Shown here piece by piece: positions 36,845-48,954 of a DNA stretch of 64,000 nt. Each line of letters begins with the position of its first letter. Positions within the stretch are counted from its first letter, which is position 1. A model generated the notes under the pieces. It saw only the letters and a list, made by a program, of their open reading frames with translations. It was not told the DNA's origin and ran no database searches. Position numbers and translations under genes: made by a program. Source of the DNA: Corallococcus macrosporus DSM 14697 (GTDB lineage: Bacteria; Myxococcota; Myxococcia; Myxococcales; Myxococcaceae); the NCBI RefSeq assembly GCF_002305895.1, contig NZ_CP022203.1, forward strand, positions 6,172,001-6,236,000, written 5' to 3'.

Positions 36845-36896
36845 TGACACGTCATTGACGCGTCCGAAGGCAGCCGGAAACGGCGCTGACACGTCA
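36845..36896. promoter_or_regulatory. Paired TGACACGTCA sites, probable enhancer
   Basis: The identical 10-bp word TGACACGTCA occurs at 36845-36854 and 36887-36896. The start-to-start distance is 42 bp, four helical turns, so both sites face the same side. They lie 75-126 bp upstream of the plus-strand sigma-54 promoter at 36971-36986. The same word recurs as a pair at 47298-47339 upstream of another sigma-54 promoter. Confidence 0.65.
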
Positions 36897-36970
36897 ACGG
36901 CAGGGGCCCGGACCCAACCCACCCCACGGGTCCCTCTCACACACCTCACGGGTTTTTCCGGGGACAAACG

Positions 36971-36986
36971 TGGCGCGTTGCGTGCA
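36971..36986 (+). promoter_or_regulatory. Sigma-54 (-24/-12) promoter of the OmpA/Cys-rich operon
   Basis: TGGCGCGTTGCGTGCA has GG and GC separated by 10 bases and agrees with the -24/-12 consensus except at two positions. It lies about 73 bp upstream of the OmpA-like start, with paired enhancer-like sites further upstream. The rest of 36703-37058 contains the leader of this operon and the promoter region of the divergent AcoR-like gene. Confidence 0.7.
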
Positions 36987-37058
36987 AAACACCCCGCGTC
37001 TCAAGCAGTGCGACACCCGCGTGCGCTGTTCCGGCGACACGTTGAGGGGGAGGAACCC

Positions 37059-47235: not shown

Positions 47236-47297
47236 GACAGGTCTGCTGGGCTGGGCCTCCAAGGAAACCCATCCGGTTCCATTCGCCGAAGGCGCGT

Positions 47298-47339
47298 GGA
47301 CACGTCAGCCGAACCCACCCGGTCCGGTTTGACGTGTCA
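47298..47339. promoter_or_regulatory. Inverted pair of GGACACGTCA/TGACGTGTCA sites, probable enhancer
   Basis: GGACACGTCA lies at 47298-47307 and its near-complement TGACGTGTCA at 47330-47339, with starts 32 bp apart (three helical turns). The pair lies immediately after the stop codon of the enhancer-binding protein gene and upstream of the sigma-54 promoter at 47220-47235. It matches the pair at 36845-36896. Confidence 0.65.
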
Positions 47340-47346
47340 GCCCAGG

Positions 47347-48954
47347 CTACCCACCACTGAGGCCCAGCTCCCGCACGCGGCGCTGGAGCGCGCGCTTGGA
47401 GACCTCCAGCCGCTGCACCATCCGGTCGAGGTCCCCTTCACACTCGTGGAAGCAGCGGGTGATCTCCTCCGGGCTCAAGTCGCGCGCGGTGCGCAGGAGC
47501 GAGCTCTTGTCGATGAGGACGTAGACGGAGGGCCGGGGAATGCCCAGCCAGTCCGCGGTGGCCTTGAGGTCCCAGGAGCAGGCGCGCAGGGCCTCCAGCA
47601 GCTCCTGCTCGCTCACGTCCGCGGGCTTGCGGCGTGGCGCCTTCACACCGTCATCGTCCTCGGCGCGCTCCGTCAGCGGGCGCCCAGGCACCGGCTGCGC
47701 CTCCGCGTCCAGCAACTGCTCCAGCCGGGCGTCGGCGCGCAGCCCCGGCAGGCCCCGGTTGCCGATGACGAGCTGCCGGGTGACATTGCGCAACTGGCGG
47801 ATGTTGCCGGCCCACCCATGGCGCACCAGCCGGACGGCCAGGGCCGCGGGCAGCCACGGCTCGGCGCGCGGGTCCGAGGCCGTGAGCTGGGCCCCCTCCC
47901 CCATGGCCTCCAGCTCCTGGCGGGCGAAGTGGTGGAAGAGCAGGCCAATGTCCTCGCGGCGCTCGCGCAGCGGCGGCACCAGGATTTCGAAGCCCGCCAG
48001 CCGGTGCAGCAGCGGCGCCTTGAAGGTGCGGTCCTGGATGCGCGCCTCCAGGTGCGCGTCCGTGGCGGAGACGAGCCGCACGTCGACGGGCACCGGCGTG
48101 TGGCCGCCCACCGGATAGATTTCGCCCGTCTCCAGCACCCGCAGCAGCGCGGCCTGCACCTCGGGCGGCGCCTCGCCCACCTCGTCGAGGAAGAGCGTGC
48201 CGCCCTCCGCGGCGCGGAAGAAGCCGTCCCTGTCCCGGCTGGCCCCCGTATAGGCCCCGCGCTGGGCGCCGAAGAGCTCCGCGGCGACCAGCTCCTTGGC
48301 GAGCGCCCCCAGGTTGACGCTGACGAAGGGCCCGGCGCGGCGGGGGCCGCTGGCGTGGATGGCGCGCGCCACCAGTTCCTTGCCCGTGCCCGTCTCACCG
48401 CGGATGAGCACCGGCACGGTGAGGTCCGCCACGCGGATGATGTCCTCCCGCACGCGGTGGATACCCTCGCCATGGCCGACGATGCCCTGGTCCAGCGCGC
48501 CCGGCTGCCGGAAGGACGACGCAAGATGGAGCAGCAGCACCACCCGGTCCGCGAGCACCAGCGGCACGCCGGCCGACAGCTCCTCGCGGGAGAACTCACG
48601 GCCGCCCTGGACGGCCTGGTCCGCCACGCGCACCTGCGTGCCGTCCTCCGGCACCAGCATGCGGAGGCCGCCGCGCGGGCCGGGCTCGAACTCCACCGGC
48701 TTGCGGCTGAGGAAGGGGTCGCCCAGGGGCAGCGCCATCAGCCCCCCGGGCCGGGAGAAGTCTGGCGCGTTGCGTGACAGCGCCGCCGTGCGGCCCTGCG
48801 ACGCGAGCACCTCCAGGAGCAGCCGCTCCCCTATCCGCTGCGGCTGCGGATGGGACACGATCGTCAAGGCGGGCACGGAGAGCGCCACCGGGGTCTGCCC
48901 GGCCTGAGCGCGGCCCGCGGTGGTCGACATGTCTGCGGCGAGTTTCTGCTGCAT
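47347..48954 (-). CDS. Sigma-54 enhancer-binding protein with two C-terminal HTH units
   Basis: 535 residues. The N-terminal part (about 25-150) is beta-rich and resembles a diverged FHA domain rather than a receiver. The AAA+ domain shows Walker A GETGTGKE (186-193), the sigma-54 contact loop as GAYTGA (233-238, Tyr for the usual Phe) and Walker [11 protein letters not shown] (251-260). The C-terminus carries two Fis-like helix-turn-helix units in tandem: EQELLEALRACSWDLKATAD plus LGIPRPSVYVLI, and EEITRCFHECEGDLDRMVQ plus LEVSKRALQRRVREL. It likely binds the paired sites next to its stop codon and those at 36845-36896. An ATG eight codons downstream is an alternative start. Confidence 0.9.
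   Translation of the reverse strand: MQQKLAADMSTTAGRAQAGQTPVALSVPALTIVSHPQPQRIGERLLLEVLASQGRTAALSRNAPDFSRPGGLMALPLGDPFLSRKPVEFEPGPRGGLRMLVPEDGTQVRVADQAVQGGREFSREELSAGVPLVLADRVVLLLHLASSFRQPGALDQGIVGHGEGIHRVREDIIRVADLTVPVLIRGETGTGKELVARAIHASGPRRAGPFVSVNLGALAKELVAAELFGAQRGAYTGASRDRDGFFRAAEGGTLFLDEVGEAPPEVQAALLRVLETGEIYPVGGHTPVPVDVRLVSATDAHLEARIQDRTFKAPLLHRLAGFEILVPPLRERREDIGLLFHHFARQELEAMGEGAQLTASDPRAEPWLPAALAVRLVRHGWAGNIRQLRNVTRQLVIGNRGLPGLRADARLEQLLDAEAQPVPGRPLTERAEDDDGVKAPRRKPADVSEQELLEALRACSWDLKATADWLGIPRPSVYVLIDKSSLLRTARDLSPEEITRCFHECEGDLDRMVQRLEVSKRALQRRVRELGLSGG

Follow-up and report, generated by a model that had tools for sequence, protein, structure and literature searches.

This locus raises the question of which regulator serves two facing transcription units, each preceded by a -24/-12 promoter, and of whether the Ser/Thr kinase gene lying between them is a target of the same circuit or its input. 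Myxobacteria encode dozens of sigma-54 activators and Ser/Thr kinases, the wiring of which is mostly unknown. The window analyzed here is the whole stretch of 64,000 nucleotides, taken from a complete 8.97-Mb Myxococcus-group chromosome, and an earlier note on it had proposed that one enhancer-binding protein, encoded at 47347-48954, coordinates a surface-protein operon, a small partner gene and perhaps the kinase gene. The genes concerned are the following.

37059-38900, + strand: TraB-like protein with a signal-like N-terminus, TSP3 repeats and an OmpA domain; TTG start after GGGGGAGG.
38921-43012, + strand: Cys-rich surface protein with 12-13 DUF4215/TIGR02232 repeats, Ig-like domains and a MYXO-CTERM-like end.
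43130-46801, + strand: Ser/Thr protein kinase with a single hydrophobic segment at about residues 394-412 and with TPR repeats at the C-terminus.
46815-47162, - strand: small 115-aa beta protein without a signal peptide, with a plastocyanin-like fold in a moderate-confidence model.
47347-48954, - strand: sigma-54 activator with a divergent N-terminal domain, an AAA+ domain with GAYTGA and two HTH-like units.

The DNA elements on which the proposal was built are present as described. Paired words stand upstream of both promoters, with exact copies starting at 36845, 36887, 47298 and 47330; the start-to-start spacings are indeed 42 bp on the TraB-like side and 32 bp on the small-gene side, and the -24/-12 elements at 36971-36986 and 47235-47220 are correct as placed. 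The second pair likewise lies close to the activator's stop codon, ending at 47339 before a stop at 47347-47349 (a gap of 7 bp). Overlooked at that stage were a third operator copy at 36856 and a second activator gene, divergent from the TraB-like operon.

34501-36927, - strand: gene of a second sigma-54 activator, transcribed divergently from the TraB-like operon; these are the limits of the open reading frame, and the true start lies further inside.
36845-36854, + strand: predicted distal operator TGACACGTCA of the TraB-like operon, an exact word match kept across the genus.
36856-36865, + strand: predicted third operator TGACGCGTCC, 11 bp past the first, found in the M. xanthus clade.
36887-36896, + strand: predicted proximal operator TGACACGTCA of the TraB-like operon, 84 bp ahead of the -24 element.
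36971-36986, + strand: predicted -24/-12 promoter TGGCGCGTTGCGTGCA of the TraB-like operon, a pattern match.
47220-47235, - strand: predicted -24/-12 promoter TGGTACGGTGTCTGCA of the small gene, a pattern match.
47298-47307, - strand: predicted proximal operator of the small gene, TGACGTGTCC on the sense strand and GGACACGTCA on the + strand.
47330-47339, - strand: predicted distal operator TGACACGTCA of the small gene, an exact word match.

The operator word is a 10-bp near-palindrome, TGAC-RY-GTC[A/C], so that its strand orientation is irrelevant. Single words occur in the window at about the frequency expected by chance (12 matches at one mismatch or fewer, 7.0 expected), and the non-random feature is their pairing. 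The pattern TGGYRCGN5TGCA matches the window only at these two promoters, with 0.34 matches expected. Once the copy at 36856 is counted, the array of the TraB-like promoter has sites at 0, +11 and +42; the third operator is found in the same nine genomes of the genus as the divergent activator gene, and may have arisen together with that neighbor. An Rfam scan of the window gave no match.

Conservation was assessed in 27 genomes of the genus, the relatives including M. vastator and M. xanthus. All 30 small-gene promoters scanned in these genomes combine a site pair 31-32 bp apart with a TGGTAC-type promoter, and a script recovered a pair 41-44 bp apart with a TGGCNC-type promoter at the TraB-like gene in 26 of the 27; in the 27th the locus is displaced by a contig end, and the sites are present on inspection. 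Such pairs appeared in none of 200 dinucleotide-shuffled sets of the same upstream regions. Operator pairs precede both the small gene and the TraB-like gene in three further genera as well (g18, g26 and g8), where the spacing of the TraB-like pair is 43 bp (three genomes) or 33 bp (one genome). The arrangement also accompanies gene duplication: M. xanthus-type genomes have a duplicated small gene with a separate pair and promoter for each copy, and g26 has tandem arrays of two or three copies, in which most copies after the first carry a 32-33-bp pair, several also with a TGGTACAGG-type promoter. The first small-gene promoter of g26, directly past the activator stop, has no recognizable pair before it. 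A complete Myxococcus locus was also found on contig BNCN01000006.1, labelled Comamonas sp. KCTC 72670, a label that is probably wrong.

The proximal site lies 49-52, 60-62, 70-73 or 82-86 bp from the -24 element; since these distances cluster near 50, 61, 72 and 84 bp, helical phase is kept (an outlying distance of 39 and a span of 65 stem from a spurious extra match at one locus, L100). Six cluster medians are phased at a period of ~11 bp with R = 0.94 and P about 0.0025, a value that is supportive and no strict test because the genomes are related and hence not independent.

The activator encoded at 47347-48954 has the AAA+ domain of sigma-54 activators (PF00158, E 1.6e-57), in which the loop GAYTGA is a conservative variant of GAFTGA, and is followed by two HTH-like units in tandem, spanning about residues 449-483 and 495-529, a feature that had gone unnoticed before. 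The first unit scores 21.8 bits against an HTH_8 cut-off of 22, and both are helical in an AlphaFold model (five close sequences) at a pLDDT of about 60-84, the model being confident in the HTH part only and poor in the rest. An FHA domain at the N-terminus was considered and rejected: PF00498 gave no match there although 50 were found genome-wide, there was no PDB profile match either, and hhalign against eight FHA domains of the genome aligned the activator's SR...GT segment at a probability of only 3.3%.

Further members of this activator family occur in Myxococcaceae, nearly all of them adjoining a paralogous kinase-TPR gene. Where a palindrome is visible past the activator stop, it is TGACRYGTCA in one clade and CGACRYGTCG or CCACGCGTGG in others, and several single genomes (e.g. 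G030, G015 and G038) hold both kinds beside the respective activators. In an activator tree made without the HTH region all TGAC members form one clade, with support of 100/99, and at residue 524, within the second HTH-like unit, the TGAC class has Q where the CGAC class has G or R. Because the TGAC class is a single clade, independent covariation of operator and HTH was rejected, and the change of operator and activator amounts to essentially one evolutionary event without replication. Operator type follows the activator's own tree, which makes the adjacent activator the likely reader, and the protein encoded at 47347-48954 is thus the likely reader of TGAC-type palindromes as far as sequence comparison can tell. 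Elsewhere in the same genome, a CGACATGTCG pair beside another kinase-similar gene (L217 6993-7024; G000:C1:7656993) fits the CGAC operator class of the paralogs.

A genome-wide search for further pairs, which the earlier note had called for, was run over the 8.97 Mb as exact-core pattern searches, not every core-variant combination, and found few beyond the two units: about eight loci with words 20-26 bp apart, some with -24/-12-like elements, a single pair at 41 bp, ahead of a lipase-like gene, and two at 31-32 bp that lack a good promoter. The lipase-like gene (G000:C1:3715449) was rejected as a third target, its close orthologs being confined to two other genomes of the genus, both with a 21-bp pair. 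The 31-32-bp pairs at 8848716 and 4822962 were likewise set aside, neither having a good promoter and one apparently being part of a coding sequence. TGACRYGTCA-type pairs 20-21 bp apart, not mentioned previously, are seen at L054 9394-9424, L055 2297-2327, L072 1451-1480 (near a guanido-phosphotransferase-like gene), L074 1296-1345, L094 1935-1965 and L095 1956-1986, some of them preceding -24/-12-like elements such as TGGCATTGGTGTTGCA in L055; these are perhaps the sites of another activator. The regulon is likely compact; it may also extend further, or the word may be a site for other activators.

It could be argued that the pairs are no activator sites at all and have been conserved otherwise, through chance and relatedness or as a structural DNA element, given that the genomes of one genus are related and that single words are near chance frequency in the window. 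This is scarcely credible, however, when the flanking intergenic DNA has diverged, the distance between site and promoter shifts in helical steps, and duplicated genes re-create the arrangement. The identity of the reader is a separate matter. The divergent gene at 34501-36927 encodes a sigma-54 activator with a Fis-type HTH (Pfam) to which, in the M. xanthus clade, no other regulator gene lies closer to the operon, and the +11 site occurs in the nine genomes that have it there; it might control the TraB-like operon and leave the small gene alone to the activator at 47347-48954. Yet only 9 of the 27 genus genomes, and no genome of the other genera examined, have it next to the operon, whereas the operator pair is present in all, and the operon's operator word recurs beside the activator at 47347-48954, so that we consider such a division of labor quite improbable.

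Nor is it likely that the two units belong to a larger network in which several activators, or an unrelated dimeric regulator serving many promoters, act at the palindromes. The combination of 31-32- or 41-44-bp spacing with a good promoter is limited to these two units, and a shared third regulator would not predict that, among the paralogs of a single genome, each operator type goes with the activator beside it; the 20-26-bp exact-core pairs near -24/-12-like elements elsewhere in the genome, and the 41- or 21-bp pairs at the lipase-like genes of three genomes, are the observations that speak for such a network. A single regulator for both units, as first proposed, remains the best reading of the conservation, the co-duplication, the phasing and the match between operator type and activator family, and we put at roughly 78% the probability that the activator at 47347-48954 is the private regulator of both sigma-54 promoters, with the kinase as input and the surface pair and small protein as output.

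The role of a further target that had been suggested for the kinase gene is not supported, as neither an operator site nor a -24/-12 element lies ahead of this gene and there is a long hairpin between the operon and its start.

43035-43095, + strand (limits approximate for the hairpin): G+C-rich long inverted repeat between the Cys-rich gene and the kinase gene, without a T run.

A terminator search called no terminator at this inverted repeat. The catalytic motifs of the kinase are intact, its gene is conserved beside the activator gene, and the kinase is more plausibly an input to the circuit than an output.

Under the single-regulator reading, the activator would bind clusters of the 10-bp palindrome, the sites lying 11, 31-32 or 41-44 bp apart and on a single face of the helix; its two C-terminal HTH-like units would probably make the contact. 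It would remodel RpoN polymerase at two -24/-12 promoters, that of the adjoining small gene and, 10 kb away, that of the TraB-like/Cys-rich operon. By analogy with established knowledge of NtrC-type activators, this would involve cooperative binding, looping and formation of an RpoN open complex. The membrane kinase may use its TPR region for sensing the envelope and may phosphorylate either the activator or a partner, and the activator's N-terminal domain could have a phosphopeptide role. The output would comprise an outer-membrane anchor of the TraB type and a long, Cys-rich surface protein, together with one to three copies of a cytoplasmic cupredoxin-like protein, the functions of the surface pair and of the small proteins being putative.

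The description of the operon as encoding a pair of surface proteins was borne out, the pair being an OmpA/TSP3 protein and a Cys-rich protein with a MYXO-CTERM-like end; the relation to TraB had been missed. The first product matches Pfam OmpA (8.7e-25) and TSP_3. It was rejected as a true TraB (NF033763), scoring 278.8 bits against a curated cut-off of 700, and the genome's true TraB lies elsewhere, at 8191443, with 1027 bits. At the C-terminus of the Cys-rich protein a Cys signature, a hydrophobic stretch and an Arg/Lys-rich end are seen by eye (GGGCSTAPATSWLALLGLLGLRRRKRG); the MYXO-CTERM model is absent among the NCBIfam hits reported for this protein. Other TraB-like TSP3-OmpA genes of the genome (L085, L086, L087 and L088) adjoin genes for long repeat surface proteins, and a TraB-type anchor with a surface protein looks like a recurring design.

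The small protein has no family match. Its model is of moderate confidence (pLDDT 69.7), and a Foldseek match to plastocyanin (E 5.5e-4, TM about 0.5) suggests a fold like that of the cupredoxins plastocyanin and pseudoazurin, at low sequence identity. The alignment contains no conserved Cys/His/Met set of type-1 copper ligands. The small proteins compared (46815-47162 and loci L039, L045, L050, L051, L058-L061 and L065-L070) include diverse products encoded past paralogous activators, namely a 44-aa Thr/Gly peptide, cupredoxin-like proteins and lipoproteins. A C-terminal tail, K-[NT]-G-x-[LI]-[DE]-V-[TS], is common to many of them and almost invariant, as ETKNGNLDVTTDPP, in the M. xanthus clade; this tail could serve the circuit in docking or feedback.

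From sequence, a likely input kinase, an activator, an operator code and candidate targets can be named, and for Myxococcus and its closest relatives they make up a proposed control circuit that is specific enough to be tested. Paralogs with different palindromes in the same genome make specificity between parallel circuits testable, and the circuit is linked to an uncharacterized TraB-like surface pair, a relative of known kin-recognition machinery. More tentatively, and at somewhat less than even odds, Myxococcaceae may hold insulated paralogous kinase/tandem-HTH-activator circuits, each with its own palindrome type and small protein, one of which captured a TraB-like adhesin operon in the Myxococcus line.

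A literature search, with most subscription journals outside its reach, did not find the word TGACACGTCA with Myxococcus. Activators driven through Ser/Thr phosphorylation, with an adjoining kinase gene, are known as a concept. The present activator resembles FHA-domain activators in its adjacent kinase gene and in that Ser/Thr phosphorylation is plausible as its drive; it differs in that the FHA domain is theirs and none is recognized here. Also already known are sigma-54 activators with repeated upstream sites: Nla28 of M. xanthus, an NtrC-type activator with the half-site CT(C/G)CG(C/G)AG and a regulon of up to about 70 promoters, shares with other NtrC-type activators of that species several short repeated sites upstream of -24/-12 promoters (PMC9765219). 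In contrast to Nla28, the system described here has 10-bp palindromes at fixed helical spacing, apparently few targets and two HTH-like units. What is new is that private palindromes and tandem HTH-like units occur together with a partner kinase, with amplified small genes and with a TraB-like operon. In the TraAB outer-membrane exchange pair, TraB has TSP3 repeats and an OmpA domain, TraA has Cys-rich repeats and MYXO-CTERM, and the genes are adjacent (PMC3325183, PMC12045341). The window likewise places a TSP3/OmpA protein gene beside that of a Cys-rich, MYXO-CTERM-like protein, but with the gene order reversed, a TraB score far below the cut-off and no PA14 among the four Pfam families of the Cys-rich partner; judged by sequence, the products are related to TraAB in design and are not TraAB.
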